From IMG/VR virus record IMGVR_UViG_3300036893_000017, positions 1 through 33,899 of that record: a stretch of 33,899 nucleotides of DNA, one strand, 5' to 3'. This DNA comes from a virus. Below the pieces are notes generated by a model. That model had not been told where the DNA came from. It searched no databases and worked only from the letters and a program-made list of their open reading frames with translations. Position 1 is the stretch's first letter. The number at the start of each line of letters is the position of its first letter. The translations under genes and the position numbers were made by a program. Below are positions 5,494 through 27,500 of the stretch, piece after piece.

Positions 5494-5642
5494 ACGAATT
5501 AGCATTACGCGGACAGTTCGATCATTGCCGGTTCGTATCGTATTCTTATGGCTGGTGGGATAAGAAGTATTGCGTTCTCCTGCTGTTCAAGCATTTCGGT
5601 CTAGGATTTACTCGCTGCAATGGGCAGTACTTTAATGGCTGA
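5490..5642 (+). CDS. Small aromatic-rich protein (50 aa)
   Basis: GTG 5490 overlaps the stop of the previous gene (GTGA). The product, beginning MNELALRGQFDHCRFVSYSY, is rich in aromatics (Y-G-W-W-D-K-K-Y, F-K-H-F-G-L-G-F) and looks like a compact beta protein. The next gene begins inside it (5635). No family is recognised; the case rests on the unbroken coupled chain. Confidence 0.45.
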   Translation: MNELALRGQFDHCRFVSYSYGWWDKKYCVLLLFKHFGLGFTRCNGQYFNG

Positions 5643-5814
5643 GACAATGGAGCAAGTGATCGTGAGATATCGCGCTGGCCAGCCTATATCGGCGGAGGAA
5701 TTAGAGCTATGCGCCATCTGCGCTGGAATGGTGAGTCAACTGCACCGCGAAGCCCACAAGCAGTGGCACGATAAATTGCAACGCTCCCTTGATGAGAACA
5801 GGAAGAGTTGGTAG
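5635..5814 (+). CDS. Small helical protein before the portal (59 aa)
   Basis: MAETMEQVIVRYRAGQPISA, then E-E-L-E-L-C-A-I-C-A-G-M-V-S-Q-L and a basic helix. ATG 5635 is used because no better start is near; it overlaps the previous gene by 8 nt. The stop TAG (5812-5814) overlaps the portal GTG by one base. Probably an entirely helical protein; no family recognised. Confidence 0.55.
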   Translation: MAETMEQVIVRYRAGQPISAEELELCAICAGMVSQLHREAHKQWHDKLQRSLDENRKSW

Positions 5815-7937
5815 TGGCCGATAGCCAACCAGTCCGCAAGCAAGATGCTGGCGAGTCCGCAGACGAAGAACTCCTGCGCGAGATACGCGAGGACTACACC
5901 TACTATCGAGACTTCTGGCGCGACAACCATAACGAGATGAAGACCGATCTCCGGTTCATCTCAGGCGATCCGTGGGAGCCGGATGACCGGCGCAATCGGG
6001 AAGACAACAATCGTCCTGTACTATGCCCCGACGAACTGAGTCAGTACCAGAACGCCACAATCAACAATCTCAGGCAGAACAAGCGGGCGATCCAGGTCAA
6101 CCCCAAAGGCTCAGGCGCGACCGACAAGGATGCGGAGCGGCGCTCGGCGATCATCAAAGGCATCGAATACAAGTCGAATGCTCAGGGTGCCTACACGAAT
6201 GCGTTTGAGAACCAGATCAATTGCGGCATGGGCTTCTTCCGCATCACGACGAAGGTGGTCGATAAGAAGAGTGGCGATCAGGAGCCGCGCATCAAGGACA
6301 TTGAAAACCCCCTCTCAGTCCTGCTCGATCCCAATGCGAAGGAGCCGGACTTCTCCGACATGAAGCGATGCTTCGTGATGGACATTCTACGGAAAAGAGA
6401 CTTTGGCAAGCAGTATCCGAAAGCGAAGATGAGCAGCTTTGCGGCGGACGATATGAGTACCGCGCCCGATTGGTTCCAGGGCGAGAACATTCTGGTAGCC
6501 GAATATTGGCGAATCGACGGATATGATCCTGAGACCGGCGAGGGCGGAAAGGTCACGCAGTATGTGACGAATGGGGTTGAGATTCTCAGCCGAACGCCTT
6601 GGATCGGGTCATGGATACCGATCATTTCTGCGATGGGGAAGAAGGTCTACGTCCCGCACGGCTCGGAGATGAAGCGGTACTACTACTCGCAGATTCGCTT
6701 GGCGCGTGGGCCTCAGATGATGCTTGCTTACGGAGCCTCGCATGAGGCTGAGGTTGTGGGGATGCTTCCGCGCGTCCCGATGATGGGCTATGTGGGGCAG
6801 TTTGAGACGGACAAAGAGGCCTGGGATTCTCTCAACACAATTCCGAGGGCTTATATTCAAGTTGACCCAGTGGTGGACGAAGGGGGTGGTGGAGTTTTGC
6901 CTCTCCCCACCCGCGCTCAGTTCGGGCCTGACATTGCCGGATATGAAGCCTTCAATGAACGCTGGCGCAGAGCGATCCAGGCGGCGATGGGGATTACGCC
7001 TCTGCCCACGGCGGCGCAGCGGCAGAATGAGAAATCCGGTATCGCCTTGGAAAAGATTCAGAGCCAGCAGGCGATTGGATCATTCCATTTCACTGACAAC
7101 TTCGATCGCGCGATTGAGAATTGCGGGCGGCAGTTGGATGAGCTGATTACCTTGGTGATGGATACGGCGCGCGAAGTGACAGGGCGCAAGGCCGACGATA
7201 CGCATGACGTGATGCATGTAGTTCCCGGTGGAACGCCGCTGCCTCAAGCCGAACCGGGTCAACCGCCGATCACCGGAGATGACATTCTCGATCCCAAGCG
7301 CGGGGACTTTGACGTAACGATCTCATCGGGCATGAGCTATCAATCGCAGCGCGAGCAAGCCAGCGATTTCGTCGATACGCTCATTCAAAATCTCGACTCG
7401 TTGCCGCTATCCCCGCAGTCAAAGGCAACACTTCTGGCGAGAGCAATCAGCCTGAAGGACATTGGGCCGATTGGGGACGATCTCGCGAAGATCATCGACC
7501 CGCAAGGCGATGGGATGCCGGTGCCTCCGCAGGCCCAGCAGATGATCGCGCAACTCCAGCAGCAGCTTCAATTACTCCAGCAGGCCAACGTGCAGTATCA
7601 GACGAAGGTGAGCGAGTTGGAGTTTGAGAAGAAGGCTGGGATGGTCAAAGGGCAGAATGACATTATCCTCAAGAAAATGCAGATCGAGGCTGATCTTGCC
7701 GTAGCGGAGATCGAGACGAAATCTCAGGTGTTGGGCGAGCGTATAGAATTTGTGCATGATCTCGTGAAGCAACTAATCGGGCAGGCGCACGAAAGTGGGA
7801 TGGCGGCGCAGAATGCCCAGCAAACACAGGATTTGACGGCACAGCAGGGTCAACAGCAATCAGATTTGCAATCTCAAGCGCAGGAGGCAGACAATGGCGA
7901 TCAAAGTGATTCCAGCGCCCAAGCCGGTCAAGGCTAG
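5814..7937 (+). CDS. Portal protein (P22 gp1-like)
   Basis: Forms the dodecameric ring at one capsid vertex through which DNA enters and leaves, and the docking site for terminase. Length, 707 aa, is close to P22 portal (725 aa). The N-terminus (D-F-W-R-D-N-H-N-E-M-K-T-D-L-R-F-I-S-G-D, about residues 43-63) and the following N-R-P-V-L-C and Q-N-K-R-A-I-Q-V-N-P are typical of the P22-type portal family. The C-terminus (about 560-705) is Gln-rich and helical, resembling the long helical barrel of P22. GTG 5814 has AGGAAGAG upstream. Confidence 0.9.
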   Translation: MADSQPVRKQDAGESADEELLREIREDYTYYRDFWRDNHNEMKTDLRFISGDPWEPDDRRNREDNNRPVLCPDELSQYQNATINNLRQNKRAIQVNPKGSGATDKDAERRSAIIKGIEYKSNAQGAYTNAFENQINCGMGFFRITTKVVDKKSGDQEPRIKDIENPLSVLLDPNAKEPDFSDMKRCFVMDILRKRDFGKQYPKAKMSSFAADDMSTAPDWFQGENILVAEYWRIDGYDPETGEGGKVTQYVTNGVEILSRTPWIGSWIPIISAMGKKVYVPHGSEMKRYYYSQIRLARGPQMMLAYGASHEAEVVGMLPRVPMMGYVGQFETDKEAWDSLNTIPRAYIQVDPVVDEGGGGVLPLPTRAQFGPDIAGYEAFNERWRRAIQAAMGITPLPTAAQRQNEKSGIALEKIQSQQAIGSFHFTDNFDRAIENCGRQLDELITLVMDTAREVTGRKADDTHDVMHVVPGGTPLPQAEPGQPPITGDDILDPKRGDFDVTISSGMSYQSQREQASDFVDTLIQNLDSLPLSPQSKATLLARAISLKDIGPIGDDLAKIIDPQGDGMPVPPQAQQMIAQLQQQLQLLQQANVQYQTKVSELEFEKKAGMVKGQNDIILKKMQIEADLAVAEIETKSQVLGERIEFVHDLVKQLIGQAHESGMAAQNAQQTQDLTAQQGQQQSDLQSQAQEADNGDQSDSSAQAGQG

Positions 7938-11528: not shown

Positions 11529-12295
11529 TGGCAAGCCCGAACTCCATCACGGTCTCCGCACTCGACATCATCACTGCGGCGATGATGGAGCTTGGGATTC
11601 TGTCGGCCAACGAGTCTCCGGCTGCTGCTGAGGCTCAGTGGGGGCTCGTCAAGCTCCAGCGAATCATTGATCGGTACAACGCACGCCGTCCGATGATCTA
11701 TAGCGTGAACTTCACTATGTTCACGATGCCTGCTGGAAATAACCCTTTCACCATTGGGCCGGGTGCGATGTTCGACGTGAACCAGCGTCCCGTCAGCATC
11801 CCGTCCATTGGACTGATCCTGCAAGGAACGCCGGGAGTCGAACTTCCTTTGACCCGCCGGGACAGCGATTGGTGGGCGGCAAACCGGATCAAGAACCTCA
11901 CCTCGACGCTGCCGACCGACTATTACTATTCCCCGGATTGGCAGGTGCAGAGCAATGGCAGTCAGTGGGGAAATATCTTCTTCTGGCCTGAGCCGACAGC
12001 TTCCTATCAGATCAATCTGCAATCGCGGCAAGTGCTGACTGAGTTTCAAGCCATTACGGACGACTTCACGCTGCCGCCAGCTTACTGGGACTTGGTGGTT
12101 TATGAATTGGCCCTCAGCCTCACTCCGAGCTATGGACTGACGCCGAATGAGATTCTGTTGGCGGGACGCGCTGCTGCTTTGAAGGCTGTGCGGGGGAACA
12201 ATATCTCATCGCCCAGACTAGCCAGCGATGCGCCGAGTCAGATCAGCGGACAAGGAAGGCCAGACTTCAATTTCCTCGACGGATTGAGTCGGTAG
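11528..12295 (+). CDS. Head-completion/portal-adaptor protein (P22 gp4-like)
   Basis: 255 aa. In P22, gp4 is the adaptor that docks under the portal and seals the head after packaging. The N-terminus (T-A-A-M-M-E-L-G-I-L-S-A-N-E-S, then A-A-E-A-Q-W-G-L-V-K-L-Q-R-I-I-D) matches the usual start of this connector family. The middle is beta-rich with several Trp residues. It lies between the coat segment and the gp10-like gene, in the order of P22. Start ATG 11528 overlaps the previous stop. Confidence 0.78.
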   Translation: MASPNSITVSALDIITAAMMELGILSANESPAAAEAQWGLVKLQRIIDRYNARRPMIYSVNFTMFTMPAGNNPFTIGPGAMFDVNQRPVSIPSIGLILQGTPGVELPLTRRDSDWWAANRIKNLTSTLPTDYYYSPDWQVQSNGSQWGNIFFWPEPTASYQINLQSRQVLTEFQAITDDFTLPPAYWDLVVYELALSLTPSYGLTPNEILLAGRAAALKAVRGNNISSPRLASDAPSQISGQGRPDFNFLDGLSR

Positions 12296-14023
12296 ATGGA
12301 CTACGGGGGATTCATCGGCGGGGCTTACACCTTGCAGAGCATTGCAGCGGAGTGCCAGCGATGCGTGAATCTCTATCTTCAGCAGGACGAGTCTGGGGTA
12401 GGAAAAAATACTGCCATCCTGCTCAGTACACCGGGCTTGACTCGAAGAGTGGACGTGACTGGCACCAACCCGAATAAGGGGGTGCGATGCGTCTATGTGA
12501 CTTCCAAAGGACGGCTCTTTACCGTCATCGGCTCCAATCTTTATGAGATTAGTTCCACGTGGAACATTCTGGGGACATATGCCCTGCCCGGAGAGACGGG
12601 GACAGGTTTAGTCAGCATGACCGACAACGGGTCGGACATGCTGATCCTGACCGGGCCGAATGGCTATTGGTTTCATTTCAGTAACGATGGGGCGATTGCG
12701 ACCATTGCGATCAATGCGCCGGGCCTGGCATGGCAGGTCGGAGACCAGTTCACAATCACCGGAGGGGGTGCCATTGGCACTATCACTTCGATAGGCGCTG
12801 GCGGAGCTGCCACGGGAGTCTCGCTTACAATTCCCTCCACAGGCTATGCCAATACTCTTGGCGTGCCCACCACGGCGTCCCTCCCTTCCGTGGGGACGGG
12901 TATGACCCTGAATGTCACCGTCATCCCAGGGGACATGCTGATGCAGATAACGGATGCTGTGTTTCAAGGGGGGACGCAATGCGGATTCCTCGACGGCTAC
13001 ATTCTCTTCAATCAGCCGGGCACACAGCAGTTCTGGATCACGAACCTTTATTCGACGGTCATCAATCCACTAGGTTTTGCCAGCGCGGAAGGCCAGCCGG
13101 ACATTCTGCTCGGATTATTGGTGGATCACCGGGAAATCTGGCTTTTCTCTTCGACGCACACGGAGGTGTGGTATGACGCTGGCGGCGCAAACTTCCCCTT
13201 CGCCTACATTCAGGGAGCCTATATCTCGCACGGCATTGTCAGTCCTTGGACGGCTGTGCGTCTGGATAACACCGTCTTTTGGCTGGGTGCTGACGAGTTC
13301 GGAAATGGCATCGTATGGCGCGCAAACGGCTATGCGCCCCTTCGGGTTTCCACCTTTGCGATGGAGCAGGCTTGGCAGCGATACCCCACGATAACTGACG
13401 CCTATGGGTGGACGTATCAGCAGGACGGTCATAGCTTCTATGTGCTCAACTTCCCCTCCGGAGATGCGACATGGGTCTATGACGCAGCCACGGGGAAATG
13501 GCATGAGCGGGCTTATCTCGGAACTCTTGCGCTGAACGATGGGCAGCTCCATATCGGGCGTCCTAATACCCACGCCTTTGCTTTCGGCCAACATGTAGTG
13601 GGGGATTGGCAAACTGGATACCTCTACACAATGAGTCCAACCGTTTATGAAGACGATACCCGCGAGATCGTCAGACTCCGGGCTGCGCCCTACATCAGCG
13701 ATGAGAAAAAGCGTATCTTTTTCTATGAGTTTGAGCTGGATATGGAGGTCGGAGAAGGCAATCCGAATGCGATTGATCCTGCGACTCCACCAGCCGAGCC
13801 GGTGAATCCAGTCATCAATCTGCGATGGTCCGATGACGGTGGATATACTTGGTCGAGCTATCTGCCGGTGAATTTTGGCCCAGCCGGAGCCTATCTGGAT
13901 CGCGTGATCTGGCGACGGCTGGGGAACTCAAGGATGCGAGTATTTGAAGTTTCGACGGGGCAGAACAATACGAAGTTGACGCTCATCAATGCTTATCTTG
14001 AGCTGAGGGGGACAAATAGCTAA
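12296..14023 (+). CDS. Packaged-DNA stabilisation/tail hub protein (P22 gp10-like)
   Basis: 575 aa against about 472 in P22. In P22, gp10 binds below gp4 and forms the tail hub to which needle and tailspikes attach. The N-terminus F-I-G-G-A-Y-T-L-Q-S, C-Q-R-C-V-N-L-Y and T-P-G-L is typical. About residues 138-210 form a Gly/Thr/Ile-rich insertion (W-Q-V-G-D-Q-F-T-I-T-G-G-G and following) that looks like a fibre-type beta module and partly accounts for the extra length. The ATG lies directly after the previous stop with a weak ribosome site, so translation is probably coupled. Confidence 0.82.
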   Translation: MDYGGFIGGAYTLQSIAAECQRCVNLYLQQDESGVGKNTAILLSTPGLTRRVDVTGTNPNKGVRCVYVTSKGRLFTVIGSNLYEISSTWNILGTYALPGETGTGLVSMTDNGSDMLILTGPNGYWFHFSNDGAIATIAINAPGLAWQVGDQFTITGGGAIGTITSIGAGGAATGVSLTIPSTGYANTLGVPTTASLPSVGTGMTLNVTVIPGDMLMQITDAVFQGGTQCGFLDGYILFNQPGTQQFWITNLYSTVINPLGFASAEGQPDILLGLLVDHREIWLFSSTHTEVWYDAGGANFPFAYIQGAYISHGIVSPWTAVRLDNTVFWLGADEFGNGIVWRANGYAPLRVSTFAMEQAWQRYPTITDAYGWTYQQDGHSFYVLNFPSGDATWVYDAATGKWHERAYLGTLALNDGQLHIGRPNTHAFAFGQHVVGDWQTGYLYTMSPTVYEDDTREIVRLRAAPYISDEKKRIFFYEFELDMEVGEGNPNAIDPATPPAEPVNPVINLRWSDDGGYTWSSYLPVNFGPAGAYLDRVIWRRLGNSRMRVFEVSTGQNNTKLTLINAYLELRGTNS

Positions 14024-14520
14024 TGTCTACGCCTATTCCTCAACCGCCGCCAGTCCCTACTCAATCGAAGATGCTCGACGAAAACGGTCTGGCAAGTCGC
14101 CCTTGGATTTATTGGTTTACGCAGATAAAAAACATCATCGTCGATTCTCCCGCTTTCACCGGAGTCCCAACGGTTCCCACCGCACCGCCTCTGACTGACA
14201 ACATCCAAGTTGCATCTACAGCTTATGCGGATGCCGCTGTGTTGGTTGAAACAAACCGCGCTGAGACTGCCGAAGGGATTCTCGCGGCTTCGATTGCTGC
14301 GGAAACAGCGCGAGCTGAAACTGCTGAGGCTCTACTTGCACCCAAGGCATCTCCCATCTTTACCGGGATAGTGACAGAGCCAACGCCTGCCGTTCTCACG
14401 GCAGCGGTAACGGCCACATCGGCCATCGCGGGGGCCGCAAGCGCGCTCCCTTCAAATCCATTAGGGTATCTGGAGATGAGCATAAACTCGGTCACAGTGA
14501 AGGTGCCCTACTATGCGTAA
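14023..14520 (+). CDS. Putative tail needle/short tail-fibre protein
   Basis: 165 aa. A Pro-rich start (P-I-P-Q-P-P-P-V-P-T) is followed by a W-I-Y-W-F segment, a fibre motif (F-T-G-V-P-T-V-P-T-A-P, then A-S-T-A-Y-A-D-A-A-V), a helical Ala/Glu/Thr region of about 40 residues (E-T-N-R-A-E-T-A-E-G, E-T-A-R-A-E-T-A-E-A; likely trimeric coiled coil) and a second F-T-G-I motif. The same place in P22 holds the tail needle gp26, also a trimeric coiled coil. It starts by TAATG overlap. Confidence 0.55.
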   Translation: MSTPIPQPPPVPTQSKMLDENGLASRPWIYWFTQIKNIIVDSPAFTGVPTVPTAPPLTDNIQVASTAYADAAVLVETNRAETAEGILAASIAAETARAETAEALLAPKASPIFTGIVTEPTPAVLTAAVTATSAIAGAASALPSNPLGYLEMSINSVTVKVPYYA

Positions 14521-15049
14521 CTTCCATCAGCTTACGAGCGGGATCAACGTGACGCCGTTGCTGAACCAACTCTATCGCCATCCTGAGTTGTGGAACCAGC
14601 ACCGTATTCGCACCGAGCATGATCAAAGTCCCCATAGTCAATGCGACGATATTTTGGTGCGCTTTCAGAGTGGCAAGGGGGTCGAGGTCGTCGATGACCC
14701 TGAGTGTATCTGGTATCCGGCATGGGACGTTTTGACAGAGCTGCATTCCATCCTCTTCAATCTTTGCCGGACAGTTTGCGCGGAGCGGATTGGGCGGATT
14801 CTGATTTCGCGGTTAGCCCCAGGAAAGGTCATCACTCCCCATGAAGATGGCGGTGCGGTCGCTACTTACTACACTCGGTACCAACTGCCTCTCCAAAGCG
14901 AAGCAGGCTGTGTGTTCGATTGCGATAGCGAACGTGTCCAAATGGCATCGGGACAACTGTGGTGGTTCGACAACCGAAAGACCCACTCCGTCACCAATAA
15001 TTCGCCCACCGACCGGGTAGCCTGCGTAATTGATTTGAGGACGAGATGA
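14513..15049 (+). CDS. 2-oxoglutarate/Fe(II) dioxygenase-like, Asp/Asn beta-hydroxylase family
   Basis: A 178-aa enzyme-like protein with the complete metal triad H110-x-D112 (I-T-P-H-E-D-G-G) and distal H158 (K-T-H-S-V), plus R168 ten residues on, the usual 2-oxoglutarate-binding Arg. The strand after the first His (Y-T-R-Y-Q-L-P-L-Q) and G-Q-L-W-W-F-D-N before the last His match the aspartyl/asparaginyl hydroxylase family. The reaction would be hydroxylation of a protein side chain or another substrate with O2 and 2-oxoglutarate. Sitting among tail genes, it may act on a virion protein (inference). It overlaps the previous gene by 8 nt and the next by ATGA. Confidence 0.8.
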   Translation: MRNFHQLTSGINVTPLLNQLYRHPELWNQHRIRTEHDQSPHSQCDDILVRFQSGKGVEVVDDPECIWYPAWDVLTELHSILFNLCRTVCAERIGRILISRLAPGKVITPHEDGGAVATYYTRYQLPLQSEAGCVFDCDSERVQMASGQLWWFDNRKTHSVTNNSPTDRVACVIDLRTR

Positions 15050-15513
15050 CAACCTACGCGTTGGAATCACTTTCGACTGTGCGTCCTGAGTTGGAAGAAT
15101 TACTGCCTCATCATTGGAGAGAGATTGCACGAGACAAAGACAACCCGAAGTTCCAGTTAAAGCCCGATTGGGACAGCTATCTCGCGTTGGAAGCGGCAGG
15201 GCAGTTCTTTATGATGGGTTGCCGGGTGGATGGGAGACTGGCCGGATATTTTATTGGGTTCGTTCGCAGGCAGTTGCATTATGTTGACTCGCTCGCGCTG
15301 ATCGCGGACATTTACTTTATCCTGCCGGAATACCGGACTGGCCGCATTGGAGTCGAGTTATTCAAGGAAACCGAGAAGGCCGCAAAGGCGCGGGGAGTGG
15401 ATAAAATCTATCTCGGATGCAAGTCGGCTCCGGGTCTGGATCGGACAAAACTCTTTGAACGGCTTGGATATAAGAAGATCGAATACACGTTTGCTAAACT
15501 GATCGGGGAATAG
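15046..15513 (+). CDS. GNAT-family N-acetyltransferase
   Basis: 155 aa. The acetyl-CoA-binding motif A is visible as D-I-Y-F-I-L-P-E-Y-R97-T-G-R-I-G102-V-E-L-F-K, a variant of the R/Q-x-x-G-x-G/A loop, followed by the helix and by strand V-D-K-I-Y-L-G-C. The end L-F-E-R-L-G-Y-K-K-I-E is the usual GNAT C-terminus. GNAT genes are known next to tail and ejection genes in some short-tailed phages; the substrate is unknown, perhaps a tail or internal protein. It is coupled by ATGA to the dioxygenase, which suggests that the two act together. Confidence 0.82.
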   Translation: MTTYALESLSTVRPELEELLPHHWREIARDKDNPKFQLKPDWDSYLALEAAGQFFMMGCRVDGRLAGYFIGFVRRQLHYVDSLALIADIYFILPEYRTGRIGVELFKETEKAAKARGVDKIYLGCKSAPGLDRTKLFERLGYKKIEYTFAKLIGE

Positions 15514-15515
15514 CC

Positions 15516-16322
15516 ATGTGGATTGACCTCGAAGATCGCCTGCAAGAGAAACATGAGCGGCTAGGGCAAGACTGCTTCATCGCGGCTGCGGCTATCGGAG
15601 TAGGTGGTTTAGTTTCCGGCGTGGGGTCGGTAATTGCGGGGCATGAATCGTCCTCAGCCGCAAACAACGCTGCCGGGATACAGGCGCAGGAATATCAGCA
15701 GAACCAGACGAACCAGGCTCCCTTCATTGGGGCTGGTCAGAATGCGCTTCAGACCATCGCGCAGGATCAGACGAACCAAACCGGCTTTGCAACACCCTTC
15801 AATCCTCAGACTTATATCGACACTCCCGGCTACCAGTTTCAGCAGCAGCAAGGCGAGAATGCAATCAATTCCAGCGCAGCGGCGACGGGAGGGGTGCTCA
15901 ATGGCGGCACTCTCAAGGCTCTGGATCAATACACAACGGGACTGGCCAATTCGACCTACAATACGGCTTACAATCAGTATCTCCAGAACGCGAATCAGCA
16001 ATACAATCAACTCTTCGGCGTGGCACAGTTGGGCGAGCAGGGGGCCGGAACTTTGGGGCAGCAGGGGACGCAATCTGCGGCGAATCAGGGAAGTCTTATC
16101 AATGCCGCTGGCCAGGATACGGCGGCGGGAATTGTTGGAGCTGGAACCGCGATCAACTCTTCGATTGGGGCAGGCGTGAATAACAGCAATTCGCAAGCGA
16201 TTCTCGCTCAACTAGGATCGCAATCTGGCTATGGGCAAGTCTCGCCGGGAGGGGCCACGATCCCTTTCAACTCTAATCCGGGGCAGGTCTCCACGGCCCA
16301 GCAGATAGCGAGCCAATTCTGA
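15516..16322 (+). CDS. DNA transfer/ejection protein (internal virion protein)
   Basis: 268 aa. A hydrophobic Gly/Ala segment near residues 21-42 (I-A-A-A-A-I-G-V-G-G-L-V-S-G-V-G) is followed by a Gln/Asn-rich body with a recognisable pattern: I-G-A-G-Q-N-A-L-Q-T-I, then T-P-G-Y-Q-F-Q-Q-Q-Q-G, G-G-V-L-N-G-G-T-L-K-A-L and Y-N-T-A-Y-N-Q-Y. These are typical of phage DNA-transfer proteins that leave the head with the genome and form a channel through the envelope. It is first of three such genes, at the same place as P22 genes 7, 20 and 16. Confidence 0.78.
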   Translation: MWIDLEDRLQEKHERLGQDCFIAAAAIGVGGLVSGVGSVIAGHESSSAANNAAGIQAQEYQQNQTNQAPFIGAGQNALQTIAQDQTNQTGFATPFNPQTYIDTPGYQFQQQQGENAINSSAAATGGVLNGGTLKALDQYTTGLANSTYNTAYNQYLQNANQQYNQLFGVAQLGEQGAGTLGQQGTQSAANQGSLINAAGQDTAAGIVGAGTAINSSIGAGVNNSNSQAILAQLGSQSGYGQVSPGGATIPFNSNPGQVSTAQQIASQF

Positions 16323-17770
16323 TGCCTGATTTCAACATCCCGACACCGCAGATCACCTCGCCTCTCGCGCTGATGGCGCAGGTTGGAGGGATTCAACAGC
16401 AGCAGCAGAATCTCCAGCGAGGGGGAATCGCGCTTACTCAGGAACAGCAGGGCCAGCAGGACGATGCCGATGGGCGTGCAGCGATGGCGGCTGCGACGAA
16501 GATTGACCCCACCACGGGCCAATATACGGTTGACCGCCCCACACTTCTCTCCACTCTGGCAAAGTTGAATCCGACACGCGCTGCTCAGACTGCGACGGCA
16601 CTGACGCAGCAGGACACCGCAGCGCAGACGGCGCAGGCGAACCTCACAGATGCCCAGCAGAAGGCGCAACAGGCCCAGCTTGCTACGGCGAAAGCGCATG
16701 TGGACATGAAGGATCAGCTTCTCCAAGGTGCGACAGATGAGCCGAGCTATCAGAACGCGCGGAATCTGGCAATCCAGAATGGCATCAGTCCAAATGAGAT
16801 GCCGCCGACTTACAATCCTCAGTGGGTGGCGCAGGCCCATGCTCAGACTTTGACTCAACAGAATCAGATTGCGAATGCCCAGAAAGTAGCGGAGCAGGCC
16901 GAGAATGTCCGCAAGGATACTGCGACTGAAGCGCAGACGGCGGCGACACAGCAGAATACGCAGGCTTATCGACAGGCGGACCTGGGAGTTCGGCGTCAGC
17001 AGGTAGGGATTGCCGGAGGTGAACTGGCATTGAAGCAGCAGCAAACGGGGATGAGTCAGAATGGACAACCCTCTGACCTCGCAGCGGCGATTGCACAAGG
17101 CCATGTCGTGCCGGATCGTTTGGGCTATCTGCTATCGCGCAATCCGACATTGATTCAAGGCGTTATGGCTGCTGATCCAACCTTTGACAGCTCTAAGGCT
17201 GCGTCCTATGCGAATACCTATAAAGACTTCACCAGTGGGAAGACTTCGGTTGCGCTGAATGCTGGCGGAACGGCTTTGCAGCATCTTCAAGAATTGCAAG
17301 GAATGAACACCGCAGAGAGTCATATTCCGGGCACGGCTGATTACAACGCCTACCAGAACAAGGCGGATACTGTTTCGGCTGAACTCGCCCGATTTTATGG
17401 GACGGATACAGTTCCGGGAATCGCGGCGATCAAAAGCACACTGACCTCGCAACTTCCGGGGACACGAGATGCAGCCATTTCGACCCAAGCGAAGTCAATG
17501 GGGGACAAGTTGGACAGCTACCAGCAGACTTGGCAAAATGCTGCACCTTCAGCCGCTTATCAAGCTCCCATGCCGGGTATCAGTCCGAAAGCCATTGCAG
17601 CGCGGGCAGCTCTCGATCCGGACTATAAGCCGGTGGGAACGGCGTCCTCGACGCCTACACCTCAAACGCATCAGTTCTCCGTTTCCGCATGGCAACGCGC
17701 TAACCCGAACGGTAATGCGAATGCTGCCAAGGCAGCGGCGACAGCGCAGGGTTATCAGGTGGCTCCCTAA
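16322..17770 (+). CDS. Second ejection protein, Gln/Ala-rich
   Basis: 482 aa, starting in the TGATG overlap with the previous gene. The first 240 residues are a long Gln/Ala/Thr-rich helical region (many Q-Q and A-Q pairs) likely to be coiled coil; the second half is more ordered (R-N-P-T-L-I-Q-G-V-M-A-A-D-P-T, then Y-Q-N-K-A-D-T-V-S-A-E-L-A-R-F-Y). Size and place match the middle ejection protein (P22 gp20-like, 471 aa). No sequence motif proves the role. Confidence 0.65.
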   Translation: MPDFNIPTPQITSPLALMAQVGGIQQQQQNLQRGGIALTQEQQGQQDDADGRAAMAAATKIDPTTGQYTVDRPTLLSTLAKLNPTRAAQTATALTQQDTAAQTAQANLTDAQQKAQQAQLATAKAHVDMKDQLLQGATDEPSYQNARNLAIQNGISPNEMPPTYNPQWVAQAHAQTLTQQNQIANAQKVAEQAENVRKDTATEAQTAATQQNTQAYRQADLGVRRQQVGIAGGELALKQQQTGMSQNGQPSDLAAAIAQGHVVPDRLGYLLSRNPTLIQGVMAADPTFDSSKAASYANTYKDFTSGKTSVALNAGGTALQHLQELQGMNTAESHIPGTADYNAYQNKADTVSAELARFYGTDTVPGIAAIKSTLTSQLPGTRDAAISTQAKSMGDKLDSYQQTWQNAAPSAAYQAPMPGISPKAIAARAALDPDYKPVGTASSTPTPQTHQFSVSAWQRANPNGNANAAKAAATAQGYQVAP

Positions 17771-18762
17771 TGGCCGTGCAAGCGATTGACCTAAGTGCGG
17801 GGCTCGTTCCGACTCCCTCGCAGTCTGGAGCAATTGACATCTCGGCTGGATTGACGCCGAAAGCCGCACCTACAGCCGATACGCGCTCTCTTTGGCAGAA
17901 GGCCGAGGACAATTTCAACTCCAACGCGCAAGGAGCACAGCCGGGCGACAACGCGGTCGAAGGATTCGTGAAGAATGTCAGTGCTGGGGGAGCGGATGTA
18001 GTTCGCTCCATTGCTCATGCTGTCGCCCATCCTCTCGATACTATCGAAGCTTCTCAGACCGCAGCCTCTCAGGAGATGCGCAAGCCGATTTCCCAGGTCG
18101 CTGCGGATACCGGGAACCAGATCAAGACGATGGTCACAAATCCAGGGCGCACCATCGGCCAGTTCGGAGTGGGGGCGCTTATCGGAGAATCTGGCCTTGC
18201 GGCTCCAAAGGCCATCGCCGCAGTGCCTGACGCTGTGCAGAGCGCTGTAGACGCTATTCCCAGTCGAGCTAACGCAGCCTCGGTCTTCAATGATCTCAAT
18301 ACCAAGCTAGCAACCCAACCTGTTCCGCTGAGTGATACAGTTGCGCCCCTCCAGCGGGCAACCGAGATTGGTGTGCGGGGTGGGTCGTTGCCGAAACCGA
18401 TCTCCGATCTTTTGACGCGCTCTCAGTCCCCAGTGCCGATGACCTTCCCTGAAGCGCGAGACTATCAGATGAGCCTTACCGATCTCTCGCGAGAGCAGCA
18501 AGCATCGCTCACGCCTCGTATGAAGGCTCAGGTTGCTCAGGTCAATCAGGGGCTTTTCAACGATATTCATGCTGCGGCTGAATCAGCGCAGCCCGGACTT
18601 GGCTCGGATTTTGCGAATGCCATGAAAGAATATCGACAGGCTTCGCAGGTCAAGAATGCGATTGATGCTGCAAAAAAGATTGCGCTTCCTGTCGCGGCAA
18701 CCGCGATAGCTGGAGGAGGCGGCGCATTGGCTCTTCGCTATCTTTCGGAGATTGGCAAATGA
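17770..18762 (+). CDS. Third ejection protein with C-terminal membrane segment
   Basis: 330 aa, TAATG overlap. The N-terminus repeats D-L-S-A-G-L and D-I-S-A-G-L, a short tandem motif known from large internal virion proteins; the body is helical and the C-terminus has a hydrophobic Ala/Gly helix (A-L-P-V-A-A-T-A-I-A-G-G-G-G, about residues 302-325) able to enter the host membrane. It is much shorter than P22 gp16 (609 aa). It completes the three-gene ejection set and precedes the fibre genes. Confidence 0.6.
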   Translation: MAVQAIDLSAGLVPTPSQSGAIDISAGLTPKAAPTADTRSLWQKAEDNFNSNAQGAQPGDNAVEGFVKNVSAGGADVVRSIAHAVAHPLDTIEASQTAASQEMRKPISQVAADTGNQIKTMVTNPGRTIGQFGVGALIGESGLAAPKAIAAVPDAVQSAVDAIPSRANAASVFNDLNTKLATQPVPLSDTVAPLQRATEIGVRGGSLPKPISDLLTRSQSPVPMTFPEARDYQMSLTDLSREQQASLTPRMKAQVAQVNQGLFNDIHAAAESAQPGLGSDFANAMKEYRQASQVKNAIDAAKKIALPVAATAIAGGGGALALRYLSEIGK

Positions 18763-21700
18763 TGAAACGCATACTTTTGACCCTGATGCTCGTCCTCTCC
18801 TTCTCGGCGCTGGCGCAGCGTCCCGCGCTTGTCTCGCCGGTGATTCGATTCTCTGACTCGAATGGAAAACCATTGGCGGGGGGCTTCCTTTACAGCTATG
18901 CTGCCGGGACGACAACCCCGCTCCAAACCTATGTAGATTCGACGACTGGCGCGCTCAACACGAATCCCGTGGTGCTCGATTCAACGGGCAGCGCGACCGT
19001 CTTCCTTGGCGCGAACGTTTACAAGCTCGTCCTCCAGAACTCCTCTCATGTCCAGCAATGGAGTGCCGACAACATCGCGCAGGGCATGTTTCAGTCTTCC
19101 TATGTGCAAAGCGTTTTCGGACGCACTGGAGTAGTGACGGCGCAGACGGGTGACTATAGCTGCTCGATGATTACTGGGGCCATCTGTTCTATTCCGAATC
19201 TCTACAATCAGACGGTTCAAGTTTCAGGTACTTCGGCGACTCAAAGACCTATTCTGAATTTCCTCCCCGGCGTCATTGGGTCGATCTTCACGTTCAGCGC
19301 ATCGGGCGGCACGAGCTATTCCACCGCGCCTACCGTGACCTTCACGGGAGGGGGATGCACCTCTGAGCCTACGGGAGGGGTTTCTGTTTCAGGGGGTGCC
19401 GTCACCAATCCGGTCATTACATTTGCCGGGTCTGGATGCACCACCCCTCCAACTCCAGGCTTCTCAGGTGGTGGAGGGGTGGGAGCCACTGGTTCGACGA
19501 CTCTCACTCCGACCGGCATCACCTGTGTGGATGATCCCAGCCATACCTCGACGGACTGCACTTTTGCATTTGGAACTGGCAGCGGCGGCGGAGGGGGAAG
19601 CTGCACGCTTACCGATGAGACTGCGAGCCGCTCCATCGGGGGAATTTACCAGAACACCACGACCGGCATTATGTATGTCAGTGGGTTCGGACTTACCTCT
19701 GGATCATCGGTGGGTTCTCTCTATATCGCAGAGGGGCCTTCCTATCCCACGATAACAGTATTTGGGCAGACGGCCACTGCGACGATTGTTGGAGGGAATC
19801 CGGGCTTTTTTGCGACCATTTTGCCTGGATACTATTATCAGATGACGGCTAATGGCGCAGTCTATGGCATTGAGAAATGGATCGAGATTACGGGCTGCGG
19901 TGGTGGAAGCAGTAGCGGGGTCTCATCCTTCAACACACGGACAGGGGCAGTGACCCTATCCAATGCGGATGTTGCCAGCGTAGGCACCCTCCCGAATGGC
20001 ATCAATAACTGCCCACTCCAAAATTCATCGAATCTGTGTCTCACGATCAGCAGCTCCGACCAGTCAGCCACCATCAATTCAGACATCTCCACTATTGCGG
20101 GACTGACAATCCCGCAAGGGGCTATCGGGTTCCCAGACAATGCAGGCGCGGTGACTACCTATAACCTCAATGGATCGCTGCAAGACCCCTCCGGCGCGAA
20201 TGCTGTTATTGTGATGCCCAAACTGCCCAACTATACGGGGCAGCCTGCAAAGATCACTTTGCGCGGATATACCGACCCTCCGGGTATTCAGACCTCAACA
20301 CCAGCTGGCGCGGTTCTTGCGACCACCCTCAATACGGCTGGGGCGAACCTGATTGGAGGATACGATTCGGCAACTGGAGGCGGCTATCCAAACTTCACCA
20401 ACGTTGATCTGGACATCTCTAACCTGACCATTCTTGCACCCGCCAATCCGTGCGCGACAATGGTCAATGCTTTCAATGTTCTCACGGCTGAGATCACCCA
20501 TGTCAGCGTCTACACCACTACGGAAGCCCTTCCATCCTGCACTACCGGCACGGGGATTGTCTTTCCCGCGACCGACAACAATGTCCGACTTGTTGGGGAT
20601 GATATTGCGGTGGCTGGGTTCTATAACGGGGTGGTCTTTGGGGAGCATCAACATGCAGGCGCGATATATGAGGCCAACAATGTCAATGGATTTGTGTTCG
20701 ATTCCCAAAATGATTCCTCGAACACAGTGCAGGCAGACTATCTGTGGTGTCAGGGATGCACAAATTTCATAGTAGGAGAAGGCAGTTGGCCCACTTGGAT
20801 TAGAGTGACGGTTGGAGATTCGGAAGGCACGACTGGCTATGACTGCTACGACCCCGGCAATGTCCTCTACGGGGACGCATACATTCATCACTCGTATGGA
20901 GGTGTGACTGTTCCAACTCGGAGCGGGTGCGCCAACCTTCGCCTTTGGTCGATTGATACCGGGATTTGCTATGGCGCAACCTGCCCCGCAACTGGCACCG
21001 TCACTCACACCGCTGGCGCACTGACGTTGAACCAACTCATGCTCGGCAATGGAGCAGCGGACTCAAAGGTCGATCCTGACGCGGGAACAGATGGAGCCGG
21101 GAACGGGAGTATGGTGAGCTTGACTACGACTGGCCCATGCCCTCTGGGTGGCAGTGGGGGATGCGAAGGATATGCGCAAGCTACCTTCCCGTCGGCAGGA
21201 ACCTCCGGCAATAACTGGCTCGCGGGCGATGCATCAGGCCTTGGGCAGGCTATTGGGACGGGCACATTCAGCCATTTCTGCACAGCGGCGAATTACTCCT
21301 CGGTCTGCCCCCCTGGTTCCACCGTAACGCTTCAGGTCAACAGCGTAAACAACACCAGTCAGACGACGCTGAACGACGAGACCTCGACAACAAATATCAC
21401 GGGCCTCACTATCACCCCATCGAATCCCTCCGGTGGAATCGTCAAGCAAGAGATCACGGGGACTGTAAATCTCGGCAACATGTCGCAGCTCTTCGTGGAT
21501 AATCCGCAGACCTCGACCTACAACGCGGTCACGGGCGACATGCTCGGTTGCAAGACCATCACCGTGTCATCGGGTACGTTCACCATCAACCTGCTTTCGA
21601 CCGTGCCTCTCTCCGGTCAGTGCCTCCAGGTCATCAACTACGGCGCTGGCACGATCACGGTGAGTCCGAACGGCCATAACCTGAACGGTTCTTCGTCGAG

Positions 21701-22604
21701 CGCGACGATCCCGCCCGGCTCGGCTTCGGCGGCGACGGGCGGCTACTTCCACAGCGACGGCGCGGCCTATGAAGGCGTGTGGAGCGGCAACCTTGCGGGC
21801 ACCTACTGCGCGCTGGCCGGATGCACGATGACCGGCTCGATCCAAATGGCGAGCGGACAGCTCTATCAGTGGAACGGAGACACGGGCCTCTCGCGGACGG
21901 GAGCCGGAACAGTTGCTTTGGGCAATGGGACAGCGGGCAGTGCCAACGGAACATTTGCTGCGGCAAACTTCAACGCGGGCACGGAGTTTGAGGCGCTAGC
22001 GCAAGGTACGGCTACCTCTGGTGCCAACTTCGGTTCCGGGGAAATGGAGTTCTTTGCAAGCTATTGGAATGGCTCTGCCGCAGCGGTGGACACGTGGACT
22101 TGCGCGACATCGCTGGCAACCGGGTCCAACCCAGCCAGCACGCTAGCCTGCAACTGGGGGGGCGGCGATGCGTCGGGTACCTTCCAAGTCCCAGCGTTGC
22201 AGGTTGGAACCATCACATCCTCGACTTTAGCGGGCACTTCCGGCATCTGCGCATCGGGAGCTAGTAACGCCTTAGCGCAGACCGGATGCATCTTTAAGAA
22301 CGCATCTGCAACGGCGTCCGCTACCCCTGGAACTGGGGTGACCTCCGTAACATGTGCGACGGCAACCTGCACCAACACGCGGGGAACCTACACCGTCGTG
22401 GGTGGGACGGCCACCACGGGAACGATCTTCTCGCTGTCATGGACAGCTACGGCGACGGCCTATGTCTGCACTGCGACGATGAACGGCGGAACGGGCTTCT
22501 TGGGAATTGGGAACTCGTTGGCCACCACCACAGGCATGAACATCACAGCCGGAGTAACGGTATTGGGCCTGACCTTCAACGTGAACTACAGTTGCCAACC
22601 ATAA
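18759..22604 (+). CDS. Large tail fibre/tailspike-like protein with Sec signal peptide
   Basis: 1281 aa. It begins with a signal peptide (MMKRILLTLMLVLSFSALAQ, cleavage likely at ALA-Q), odd for a virion protein. Next comes a tail-fibre/tailspike N-terminal domain (about residues 25-110: D-S-N-G-K-P-L-A-G-G-F-L-Y-S-Y-A-A-G-T-T-T-P) that usually binds the tail. Two fibre motifs follow, V-F-G-R-T-G-V-V-T near 118 and S-F-N-T-R-T-G-A-V-T near 388, then a beta-rich region (about 500-760) likely to be a beta-helix with several Cys, and further fibre domains. ATG 18759 has GGAG 8 nt upstream and overlaps the previous stop. Confidence 0.75.
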   Translation: MMKRILLTLMLVLSFSALAQRPALVSPVIRFSDSNGKPLAGGFLYSYAAGTTTPLQTYVDSTTGALNTNPVVLDSTGSATVFLGANVYKLVLQNSSHVQQWSADNIAQGMFQSSYVQSVFGRTGVVTAQTGDYSCSMITGAICSIPNLYNQTVQVSGTSATQRPILNFLPGVIGSIFTFSASGGTSYSTAPTVTFTGGGCTSEPTGGVSVSGGAVTNPVITFAGSGCTTPPTPGFSGGGGVGATGSTTLTPTGITCVDDPSHTSTDCTFAFGTGSGGGGGSCTLTDETASRSIGGIYQNTTTGIMYVSGFGLTSGSSVGSLYIAEGPSYPTITVFGQTATATIVGGNPGFFATILPGYYYQMTANGAVYGIEKWIEITGCGGGSSSGVSSFNTRTGAVTLSNADVASVGTLPNGINNCPLQNSSNLCLTISSSDQSATINSDISTIAGLTIPQGAIGFPDNAGAVTTYNLNGSLQDPSGANAVIVMPKLPNYTGQPAKITLRGYTDPPGIQTSTPAGAVLATTLNTAGANLIGGYDSATGGGYPNFTNVDLDISNLTILAPANPCATMVNAFNVLTAEITHVSVYTTTEALPSCTTGTGIVFPATDNNVRLVGDDIAVAGFYNGVVFGEHQHAGAIYEANNVNGFVFDSQNDSSNTVQADYLWCQGCTNFIVGEGSWPTWIRVTVGDSEGTTGYDCYDPGNVLYGDAYIHHSYGGVTVPTRSGCANLRLWSIDTGICYGATCPATGTVTHTAGALTLNQLMLGNGAADSKVDPDAGTDGAGNGSMVSLTTTGPCPLGGSGGCEGYAQATFPSAGTSGNNWLAGDASGLGQAIGTGTFSHFCTAANYSSVCPPGSTVTLQVNSVNNTSQTTLNDETSTTNITGLTITPSNPSGGIVKQEITGTVNLGNMSQLFVDNPQTSTYNAVTGDMLGCKTITVSSGTFTINLLSTVPLSGQCLQVINYGAGTITVSPNGHNLNGSSSSATIPPGSASAATGGYFHSDGAAYEGVWSGNLAGTYCALAGCTMTGSIQMASGQLYQWNGDTGLSRTGAGTVALGNGTAGSANGTFAAANFNAGTEFEALAQGTATSGANFGSGEMEFFASYWNGSAAAVDTWTCATSLATGSNPASTLACNWGGGDASGTFQVPALQVGTITSSTLAGTSGICASGASNALAQTGCIFKNASATASATPGTGVTSVTCATATCTNTRGTYTVVGGTATTGTIFSLSWTATATAYVCTATMNGGTGFLGIGNSLATTTGMNITAGVTVLGLTFNVNYSCQP

Positions 22605-23757: not shown

Positions 23758-24564
23758 ATGAGACTACAACACCTATTGATCTGCACGGCTTTACTTGCCA
23801 CCTCCTGCACGGAAGTCGCGGTTGGGCCAGCGCAGATCAGCGTGGGCATTCTGAGTTCAGGCGGGAGTGCCACCAACTCATGTACTGGTATCGATGCACT
23901 GTTTACCGCCGAATATGCCAGCACAGGCTCACCCATCGGCTCTGTGACCACGATTCCCGATGCCACCGGCAATGGAAACACTGCCACGGTCGTCTCCGGC
24001 GCGCTGACTGTGAGTACGGTTACTCCGACGCCGAACGGCACGCAGACGTTTGCCCCAGTCGCAGCCTTGGCCACATTCACCGGATTGCCAACACCGACCT
24101 CATTCACGATTGTTGCCGTCTATCGACTTACTGCGACCGGGGGCGGTCAGACTATCCTTGGCTCGAATAATGTGGCAGGAGGGCCTATATATTATGCCTC
24201 AGAGTCATCGTATTCTGGGCACCCCCAAGGACTTACTAAGCAATTCGTGACTGACGTAGCCGAAGGAACAGCGGCATCGACAACCAATTGGGTAGAGACA
24301 GCCGTTAGCTCGGTGGCCGGGTCATCGGTGCAATTTTATATTGACGGCGCGGTCGATACGTTACAGCCCCACAGCATCTCGACCACCTACTCGAACGGCT
24401 TCGGTGCTTTGTTTTCCTCCGCCTCTGGAGGCTCGGAGCAGATATACGCGGTACTGGCCGAGATTGATTTTGTGAGTGCGTCGTCCGGGTCGGCTGGATC
24501 GCTCAGCGGATCGCAAATTTCCGCGATCCACGCTTGCCATGTGTCGAGATATGGAGCGGTCTAG
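23758..24564 (+). CDS. LamG/concanavalin-like domain protein with lipoprotein-like signal
   Basis: 268 aa. GGAG is 7 nt before ATG 23758. The N-terminus (MRLQHLLICTALLATSC) ends in a Cys at 17 in a weak lipobox (A-T-S-C); either lipoprotein or plain Sec signal is possible. The C-terminal 170 residues have the pattern of a concanavalin/laminin-G jelly roll: T-S-F-T-I-V-A-V-Y-R-L, then W-V-E-T-A-V-S-S-V, V-Q-F-Y-I-D-G-A-V-D and the final L-S-G-S-Q-I-S-A-I-H. This fold binds carbohydrate. Probably a sugar-binding surface protein acting with the neighbouring fibres. Confidence 0.65.
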   Translation: MRLQHLLICTALLATSCTEVAVGPAQISVGILSSGGSATNSCTGIDALFTAEYASTGSPIGSVTTIPDATGNGNTATVVSGALTVSTVTPTPNGTQTFAPVAALATFTGLPTPTSFTIVAVYRLTATGGGQTILGSNNVAGGPIYYASESSYSGHPQGLTKQFVTDVAEGTAASTTNWVETAVSSVAGSSVQFYIDGAVDTLQPHSISTTYSNGFGALFSSASGGSEQIYAVLAEIDFVSASSGSAGSLSGSQISAIHACHVSRYGAV

Positions 24565-24565
24565 C

Positions 24566-27500
24566 ATGAAGCGTCTTGTCTATCTCGCCCTGCTCTGCGC
24601 CTTCCCTATAGCGGCCCAGACCACGAACATTGCCATTCCTGCTGCCTCTGGAGGCGGCATCAAGACGACGCTCAACGAGCGGATGGGTGTCAACCTCGAC
24701 GATGCCTCCGATTATGGGCCGGGCCAGACACTCACCAACCTGATTGCATCGCCACCTGCGTCTTTCCCACTCCAGATTTGGAACCAAGCCTCCTTTTGCG
24801 CGTCCAGCGGGGCCACTACAACTGCGTGGCAGGATAATAACCCGTCCTCCCCGCAGCGGGCGAACTTTTGGGCTGGAGCGACCTTTCAGGTGGTCTCCGG
24901 GGCAGACATCAATGCGACGGGCACGATCACTTCGAGTACAGCTGCGAATGGCTCGACGACCGGGCAGGTCTTCACACTCTCGCCTGCGCTGGGTTCGCCG
25001 TGTTCCAGCAACGATACGATGATTCTGCGCTGCCGCTCTGCCTCAACTACGGGCTGCGCCAGTGGACTGACACCCGACAGCGCAGGCGGATATAGTGGGA
25101 TTACAGGCACAGGATCTTGGTCTGCCGCTTTGGAAAGCACAGACCTTTCCCCATCGTCGTCTGCTCCCCAGGCTTTGGAGTTGGTCGCACCCGGCTCCGC
25201 CACGGCACTCAACGATTTTGCTTTCGACCAAAGTCTGTCCTCAGTCTACGGCGGTGGTGTGTGGCTCAATCTGAATGGGAACTACGCGCTGACCTTCCGC
25301 GCCAAAGCAACTTCAGGAACTCCGACGTTCTCCTATGAGGTGTTCCGCAATGGAGGGACATCGACGGTCTTTCTCAATGGAAGCGTGACCCCCACGGTGA
25401 ACACTACGCCGGGAGCGGGCTGGACGAATTATTCCTTCCCCTTTACTGCCAGCGAGACCGGCGCGCAGAACACGGAAGCTGACATCCGAATCACTGCAAC
25501 TGGAGGGACGGTGCTGACACAGGACTGGGCCGTGACTGAGTCTACCTCTGGGGGCAACCCGACTATCTTCCGCAACACGGTCTATCAATATCTGCTTGCC
25601 CACAAACCCGGAACCCTCCGCTTTATGACAGGCAGCGGATGGGGCTGCACCCTCGACGCCATGATTACCAGCTACAGCGGGCGGCCCAGGTGCGGCTATA
25701 GTTCGTATGCCAATGTTGGCTATATAGTTACATACGGTTTGAACGACTTCTTGCTTCTGGCGGCTTCCGTGGGAGCAGACCCGTGGTGGACATTCAGCGC
25801 TTACTCACCCACGACGGATATGGCGAACATGGCCGCGTATTTCAACGCACCCTGCTCAAGCGGGAACAGCTACGCTACGATCCGCTGCAACTTCCTCGCG
25901 ACTGCGGCAGGAGGCATCTATGCTGGGATGACATGGCCGCAGGTCTTTACAGCGGCAGGGCACGGCCAAATCTATTTGGAGATGGGCAACGAGATTTGGA
26001 ACTCGCCCAACGGTGAAAACCTGTATGTCAACAATGGGCAAAATTATGGGTTGCTGCTGGGGGCCAATGTCGCGGCCTTCAAAGCATCTCCCTACTACAT
26101 AAGCTCCATGCACATCGTAGGTTCTGGTTTTGTCGGGGCCAACACCGGGAACTGGAACAACAATGTTCTAACGGCGGCCCAAACGATAACCAATGGCTTG
26201 CCGGACTTCATCGATGCCGCGCCTTACCAGTACACCTTTATGACGGACGTTAGCACCAATCAAAACGTCTTCGGCCCAATGTTCGCGGAGCCAGTAAATT
26301 TTAGCACCCTCACAACCGGCCCAGTCTACCAAGACCAGCATTTTGCGTACACAAACTTTGGAGTGAACAGCGCGCATTACGAAGAGAACATGAACACCAC
26401 ATACGGTTTGACTGGCGTCACGCAGGCGGAGCTATCTGACAATATAGCTGGGGTGGGCGCGGGACTGGCGATGACCGAAAATATGCTGCTGGCCGCGAGG
26501 GATGCGGGAATCAAAGTCCAGAATGCTTTTACTTTACCGAGTGTGGGCATATATCCCTATGTCTATAGTTGCTTGTATGCCTGCTCCAATTCGCAGGATA
26601 GTTCGGTGTACTCGCCAGTCTGGGGTGTAAGCAAATACATGTCGGGGCCAGGGTCATCGGGAATCATCGACAGGCCGACAGGAATTGCCCTCGGACTCGT
26701 CAACAACGCCATTGGCAACAAACTCTATGTGTTGAACACCGTCCAGACTGGAACGCCGACCTACAATATGCCGGGGGGCCAGCCCAATCCGGGGGGCAGT
26801 CAGACCTTCACCGGAACCACAACGATGGGATCGAACGTCATCACCAGTGTGGTGCCTCCAGGCCCTCCGGCCTGCGGTGGGTATTGTCTTGGCGAAATCA
26901 ACAATTCGATCACTGGCCCCGGCATTCCATCCGGCACCCTGAATACGGCTTACAACTCAGGGGCGAATACCCTGACCCTGAGTCAGAATGCGACATCCAG
27001 CGGGAGCAATACGTTCTACGAGACGATCTACTCGATCGCTCCCAATACATCAGTGCCGGAGGTGCAGGCGTTCGGGTTCGGGGACGGCGCGGGGAATTAT
27101 TCGGTCATCGCCTACAACTTTGACCTGACCAACAGCCATGCCATTACATTCTCCGGCAGCGGTGCCCCGACTGGAACATGCACGAAGACGGTATTCACCA
27201 GCACGAACATTACGGACAATAACGAGGGCGTTTACCTTGACGGGACGCCGGTGGTCAGCTCCCCATCTTCGACCAGCTACAACTGCGGGTCGGGGGGAGA
27301 CACGCTGGCCCCGTATTCGATGGTGACGTACACCTACACCGTAGGGACCGGCGCGCAGACGTGGTACATCCGGCAGGACGGTGCAGGACGGTACGATGCT
27401 GCGCGGGTCGCGGCAGGGTTTACCGGCTCGGCAATCGGCTGTGACGGTCTGGGCGATGTTGCCTACCCCGGCAGTGGAACGAATCAACATTGCGCCTTTG

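Follow-up and report, generated by a model that had tools for sequence, protein, structure and literature searches.

A conserved oxygenase–GNAT gene pair ahead of the ejection genes of short-tailed phages, with a possible role in virion protein modification

In the late genes of a phage of the short-tailed type, a gene for a 2-oxoglutarate (2OG)-Fe(II) oxygenase overlaps one for a GNAT-fold protein, and the same pair recurs, mostly overlapping and next to ejection genes, in a large number of related loci. Because so many phages that are only distantly related keep the pair, it probably helps to mature the infection machinery. We tentatively propose that it is a late two-enzyme cassette that modifies virion proteins, of the ejection apparatus or the tail, during assembly. 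The DNA analysed, called the window below, is the whole stretch of 33,899 bases of an IMG/VR virus record, and the order of its late module is terminase, portal, scaffold, capsid, Hc3, fibre-like gene, oxygenase, GNAT and ejection protein. Features of the region are collected in Table 1; the oxygenase and GNAT reading frames share an ATGA exactly as a first-pass annotation of the sequence had claimed.

Table 1. Features of the late region of the window (positions are those of the window).
Feature	Position	Strand	Basis or conservation
Head closure Hc3 / P22 gp10-like gene	12296..14023	+	phrog_578, E 1.7e-107
Fibre- or needle-like gene	14023..14520	+	position of P22 gene 26; short tail-fibre PHROG matches, best E 2.9e-7
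2OG-Fe(II) oxygenase gene, PF05118 family, 178 aa	14513..15049	+	PF05118, E 7.5e-16
HxD of iron site, codons H110-E-D112	14840..14848	+	H and D in 66/66 distinct sequences
Distal iron ligand, H158 codon	14984..14986	+	66/66 distinct sequences
R168 codon	15014..15016	+	65/66 distinct sequences, K in one
ATGA shared by oxygenase stop and GNAT start	15046..15049	+	
GNAT-fold gene, 155 aa	15046..15513	+	PF00583, E 9.2e-10
Degenerate CoA-loop motif RTGRIG, codons 97-102	15334..15351	+	RxGxxG in 29/45 aligned sequences
P22 gp7-type DNA-ejection protein gene	15516..16322	+	phrog_598 'DNA ejection', E 2.3e-23
Ejection cluster gene 2	16322..17770	+	position only, order as P22 genes 7-20-16
Ejection cluster gene 3	17770..18762	+	position only, order as P22 genes 7-20-16

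The neighbours of the pair had been described as a needle-like gene upstream and ejection proteins downstream, and each description stands in part. The upstream gene, which overlaps the oxygenase gene by 8 bases, is needle-like by position, as P22 gene 26 lies there, and not by sequence, its tail-fibre PHROG matches covering a short stretch only. The gene before it is of the kind of P22 gene 10, which carries the Hc3 annotation. On the other side, the gene that starts 2 nt past the end of the GNAT gene is an ejection gene by family match, while the two after it are assigned by position alone, with no convincing family match in the PHROGs scan. A promoter and terminator scan of 12200-18800 gave no signal exceeding that of shuffled sequence. 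Two very long open reading frames lie further on, at 18759-22604 (1281 aa, unmatched in Pfam and PHROGs at E up to 1) and at 24476-29173 (1565 aa).

How general is the pair? The count was made over 155 oxygenase loci left after duplicate removal, loci found through the ejection gene included, and identical oxygenases were counted once, giving 124 distinct oxygenases. Here, as in the covariation analysis below, where identical oxygenases likewise entered once, the window itself (L011) and the duplicates L012, L031 and L033 (of L001, L003 and L004) were dropped, and L133-L212, near-identical relatives of P22 gp14, were left out. A GNAT gene follows directly downstream in 117 of the 124, being of the window type in 113 and of a second type, in the same slot, in 4. 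It is absent next to five oxygenases (L007, L126, L128, L132 and L265), and two others (L090, L120) stand at contig ends. Since the five exceptions fall in four clusters at 70% identity, the lack of the GNAT is not a single event. By clusters, 32 of 36 oxygenase groups at 70% identity and 7 of 10 at 50% have the GNAT. The distance between the two genes is -4 in 73 of the 117 distinct pairs and -1 in 24 (97 together), takes other small values in 16, and is widened by an inserted gene or stretch in four (L001, L041, L047, L291).

Wherever its family is known, the gene after the pair encodes an ejection or virion protein, and even without a GNAT the oxygenases of L007 and L132 adjoin an ejection gene, the order in L132 being Hc3, oxygenase, ejection gene. 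Co-occurrence of the two genes in related phages, which the earlier reading had set as a test of itself, is strongly borne out: the pair is conserved, mostly overlapping, and beside ejection genes in most lineages. The idea that the pair is striking because it is rare has to be given up, for it is common. A supposed loss of the GNAT in L044, L047, L048, L055, L059, L062, L064 and L069 was likewise rejected, as another GNAT type is present there; the GNAT beside the oxygenase can be swapped for a different type. The closest relative of the window, L001, has an oxygenase 90% identical to the window's and a GNAT only about 59% identical, with a 261-aa gene without family match between them (L001:6591-7376). 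In L047 and L048, at about 5530-5985, a 151-aa reading frame that by eye resembles HNH/AP2-type homing endonucleases lies between oxygenase and GNAT.

The loci come from several searches. Of the 478 stretches that an alignment of eight oxygenases returned from IMG/VR, 456 are relatives, and the best 80 of these were used. Thirty-three DC33-like loci and one relative of MW202665 came from further searches, and six loci were taken from bacterial genomes (two Cupriavidus species, Paraburkholderia, Variovorax and two MAGs). A search with the single GNAT protein found no GNAT relatives. Among named phages, tblastn found an oxygenase relative in 9 records and a GNAT relative in 20. The two genes stand side by side in Pseudomonas phage PfAn1 and Limnohabitans phage DC33, with proteins 32-36% identical to those of the window; neither the two records nor the accessible part of the DC33 paper (PMC12195039) treats them as a pair. 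In DC33, unlike the window, the pair lies between the terminase and portal genes, and in the DC33 group (DC33 and its relatives) it is followed by a protein of 107-119 aa without known function. In MW202665 the oxygenase has no GNAT beside it, and a DNA-ejection gene (phrog_21132) comes immediately after it. Five of the nine records with an oxygenase relative are Synechococcus phages, at about 25% identity; in the one examined, S-SM2, uvsX and gp41 flank the PF05118 relative and no GNAT accompanies it. Two peculiarities of the records may be mentioned: the DC33 record (L006, PQ492659.1) is filed under Inoviridae yet carries genes for a head-tail connector and the large terminase subunit, and in PfAn1 (L005:4850-6986) two tail genes, for a minor tail protein and head closure, are inverted inside the late module.

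The oxygenase belongs to PF05118 (58.8 bits against a cut-off of 22.6); its PHROG match is phrog_32420, of unknown function. The HxD...H...R triad that the first-pass annotation had read as intact is present and conserved in the 66 distinct sequences counted, the window's included. R168 is presumably the residue that binds 2OG, as expected from the superfamily. An AlphaFold2 model built on 53 sequences (mean pLDDT 92.7) is a double-stranded beta-helix that aligns with family members at Z of about 14 to 15.6. Foldseek ranks L-proline cis-4-hydroxylase first (E 4.0e-11), and three VIA-align matches are about level: a nucleoside-antibiotic beta-hydroxylase (Z 15.6, rmsd 3.4, 150 aligned), proline 3-hydroxylase (Z 15.6, rmsd 2.5, 147 aligned) and human AspH (Z 14.5, rmsd 2.9, 154 aligned). 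Since this fold is suited to free amino acids as well as to peptides and other substrates, it names no substrate. Within the 53-row alignment R122 never varies; it stands first in an R-x-[QH]-[LI]-x-L strand that recurs in the cis-4-hydroxylase alignment, and it may have a role on the substrate side.

With the PF05118 enzymes human AspH, L-proline cis-4-hydroxylase, LpxO and the nucleoside-antibiotic beta-hydroxylase, the window oxygenase has in common the family match, the beta-helix, the distal His and the 2OG Arg, at about 14-22% identity to the solved members. It is not an LpxO by profile (18.7 bits, far under the cut-off of 500). Nor does it belong with AspH proper, the EGF-domain Asp/Asn hydroxylase: in the alignment human AspH reads HT-G where the window has HED, and it carries a TPR domain according to PDB titles, whereas the 178 residues of the window protein hold no extra domain. 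Because it keeps the HxD Asp that human AspH lacks in this alignment, the window oxygenase is not an AspH orthologue.

The second protein is a GNAT by profile and by fold. It scores 39.3 bits against PF00583 (cut-off 20.7) and matches phrog_1249 'acetyltransferase' (E 2.3e-14), and its model (pLDDT 94.4) aligns with solved GNATs at Z up to 16.1 (rmsd 2.4, 144 residues). Catalytic GNATs have a canonical CoA-loop motif, [RQ]xxGx[GA]. It occurs in 6 of 45 aligned sequences, and the RTGRIG of the window does not fit it; since the loop is non-canonical, the window GNAT may not acetylate. Residues H23, Y45, Y68, Y79, D88 and K126 are invariant in all 45.

The place of the pair, between the tail genes and the first ejection gene, is that of T7 gene 13 and P22 gene 14, neither of which is accompanied by an oxygenase in the region examined, as the window GNAT is. 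To these two there is no direct sequence match: the window GNAT matches neither phrog_651 or PF11039 (the P22 gp14 family) nor PF11090 or phrog_308 (the T7 gp13 family), hhalign gives probabilities of 7.6% for the P22-gp14 group and 0.6% for the T7-gp13 group, and neither protein is recognisable among the 50 BFVD matches listed for it. A link of another kind is given by the slot protein of L217, which has matches to the P22 gp14 family (phrog_651, E 4e-17) as well as to GNAT families (phrog_4470, E 5e-9; PF13302, E 1.5e-5); P22 gp14 is tied to GNAT families through this locus only. A profile of P22 gp14 and five slot relatives, in which five of the six rows are thus not gp14, has 20 matches among solved sequences at E up to 1, by name all acetyltransferases or N-acyltransferases bar one MccE protein. 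In L261, a T7 gp13 relative (phrog_308, E 2.8e-19) lies ahead of a P22-type ejection gene.

The slot was also surveyed from the ejection gene. Nine gp7-type proteins were aligned, at least 600 stretches with at least 506 relatives were returned, and the best 80 were kept; two (L252, L274) have no room upstream, and 78 loci were counted. The slot holds oxygenase and GNAT in 31, GNAT alone in 19, oxygenase and a cupin in 1, and neither in 27. Thus a GNAT accompanies 31 of the 32 oxygenases among these best 80 of at least 506. The 27 others comprise cupins (7), P22-gp14-type or related GNAT-like proteins (10), T7-gp13-type proteins (4) and weakly GNAT-like ones (6), this last group resting on weak matches (L258: PF13673, E 0.033; phrog_4470, E 0.0082). 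An enzyme-type protein therefore precedes the ejection gene in 78 of 78 loci, as judged from scanned representatives. The ranking put first the loci that most resemble an oxygenase-bearing one, so that lineages of this kind are favoured; because the search was seeded with such a locus, the figure of 32 of 78 probably overstates how often these phages at large carry the oxygenase. Among the variants, cupin-like proteins (phrog_12032, 'short tail fiber protein') replace the GNAT in L232, L234, L240, L268, L269, L286 and L288, and one stands beside the oxygenase in L265. A scanned protein in L253 (3388-4449), directly before the ejection gene, fuses a sulfotransferase-like N-terminal part to a GNAT part, and the slot proteins of L256, L266, L276 and L287 resemble it by eye.

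Single GNATs in this slot and PF05118-type oxygenases in phages are each already in print, as far as the accessible parts of the papers go. Cobaviruses, SIO1 and the Zobellviridae Vibrio phages have a GNAT between tail and internal virion genes, as the window does. VpV262 presumably has one in the same place. The GNATs of all these phages are related to the window's in sequence or fold and, unlike it, come without an oxygenase in the regions examined. In the portion of PMC6775973 available, a GNAT beside internal virion proteins is likened to T7 gp13 and a role in virion morphogenesis is suggested. For the oxygenase, the accessible text of PMC12195039 names DC33 ORF8 an aspartyl/asparaginyl beta-hydroxylase and handles it as a metabolic gene, that of PMC7029224 makes an aspartyl/asparaginyl beta-hydroxylase-like gene part of the Pelagimyophage core, and that of PMC11288001, on Roseobacter phages, counts GNATs, 2OG oxygenases and an aspartyl hydroxylase among the auxiliary genes, each on its own. 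The coupled pair was not found in the literature searched, which consisted mainly of openly accessible papers.

Do the two proteins evolve together? In 78 loci with oxygenase, GNAT, Hc3 and ejection genes, the oxygenase and GNAT distances correlate at 0.65; with the Hc3 backbone removed, a partial r of 0.41 is left, equalled by none of 999 permutations. The corresponding values are 0.08 for GNAT and ejection gene and 0.24 for oxygenase and ejection gene. Adjacency alone accounts for part of any oxygenase–GNAT covariation, but linkage by itself is a poor account of it, because the GNAT and the ejection gene are neighbours too. The covariation points to a task that the oxygenase and the GNAT would share, and it would speak somewhat against the ejection protein as the sole partner of both. 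Both enzyme genes are under purifying selection, with dN below dS in every pair for which dS could be estimated (oxygenase, window against L001: dN 0.056, dS 0.348). In the ejection protein, no D/N, K, S/T or P column separates 32 oxygenase-plus from 48 oxygenase-minus sequences, the largest frequency difference being 0.36; a substrate site in that protein is rejected for now, as no residue tracks the oxygenase.

We picture the proposed cassette, the likeliest of the readings considered though at less than even odds, as follows. Late in infection, judging from gene order and overlaps, one transcript would carry the tail, oxygenase, GNAT and ejection genes, and translational coupling through the overlap would hold the two enzymes at a fixed ratio. 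The oxygenase would hydroxylate an Asp, Asn or Pro residue of a virion protein, and the GNAT would acetylate an amino group on the same protein or complex during its synthesis. The most likely target would be the neighbouring ejection protein or its partner in the head-tail interior. Modification would precede the entry of this one late protein or complex into the head, and the target would then fold, be packed or cross the envelope properly. In favour of the cassette are the slot, the conservation and overlap of the pair, purifying selection, covariation, both folds and the intact iron/2OG site; against it are the lack of an ejection-protein column that tracks the oxygenase, the position of the pair in the DC33 group and the non-canonical CoA loop. 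Of the virion-modifying pair first suggested, then, a joint, late and virion-linked role is supported by conservation, overlap and the ejection genes alongside; hydroxylation and acetylation of virion proteins would go further than these features show, given the three points just listed.

Might the enzymes act elsewhere? Their late targets could instead be small molecules or host components (RNA polymerase, translation factors, ribosomal proteins), with the two genes as mere riders in a structural operon; we hold this reading to be somewhat unlikely. There are precedents: the phage GNAT Rac is cited, in the accessible part of PMC10504331, as the means by which a phiKMV-like phage inactivates the RNA polymerase of its host, and some prokaryotic 2OG oxygenases take EF-Tu or ribosomes as their targets (PDB title 4iw3; a reference list). 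Free-amino-acid hydroxylases are among the nearest solved relatives of the oxygenase, the distant PF05118 member of cyanophage S-SM2 sits among replication genes, and in what is accessible of PMC12195039 and PMC11288001 such genes are listed as auxiliary metabolic genes. However, close relatives are tied to one slot before ejection genes, in overlap with a GNAT, which would be unusual for metabolic cargo. It is very improbable that both enzymes travel in the virion and leave it along with the ejection proteins, to work in the newly entered cell as infection begins: their genes adjoin the ejection cluster, from which P22 and T7 make ejected proteins according to annotation, but the virion mass spectrometry of a T7-like phage, in the part of PMC4517105 available, does not list the slot protein. 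A role in defence or counter-defence was rejected, PADLOC giving no match at E up to 1.

A further alternative takes the GNAT-fold protein for an assembly factor without catalysis, comparable to T7 gp13 or P22 gp14, and the oxygenase for a separate passenger or loose partner. The non-canonical CoA loop, the shared slot and the double match of the L217 protein agree with this, as do the description of T7 gp13 in Pfam as a probable scaffold protein and, within the accessible part of PMC4517105, the listing of homologues of gp14, gp15 and gp16, and not of gp13, in virions of a T7-like phage. Yet the six invariant residues would suit an active site better than a binding surface, a different GNAT type can replace the window type beside the oxygenase, and the window GNAT has weak or no profile similarity to the P22-gp14 and T7-gp13 groups; we regard this alternative as improbable. 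A wider proposal joins the virion-modifying cassette to its counterparts: phages with P22-type ejection proteins would keep a slot for protein modification immediately before the first ejection gene, the oxygenase–GNAT pair would be its most elaborate form, maturing one protein of the ejection machinery by hydroxylation and acetylation, and T7 gp13 and P22 gp14 would do, or would once have done, likewise. We consider this rather unlikely as a whole.

The jobs of T7 gp13 and P22 gp14 are poorly explained, and the slot that they occupy holds an enzyme-type protein in all the loci examined. A conserved two-enzyme version present in two cultured phages, PfAn1 and DC33, makes chemical modification of ejection proteins directly testable. 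Where oxygenases and acetyltransferases of such phages stand on lists of auxiliary metabolic genes, they may instead be enzymes of virion assembly.
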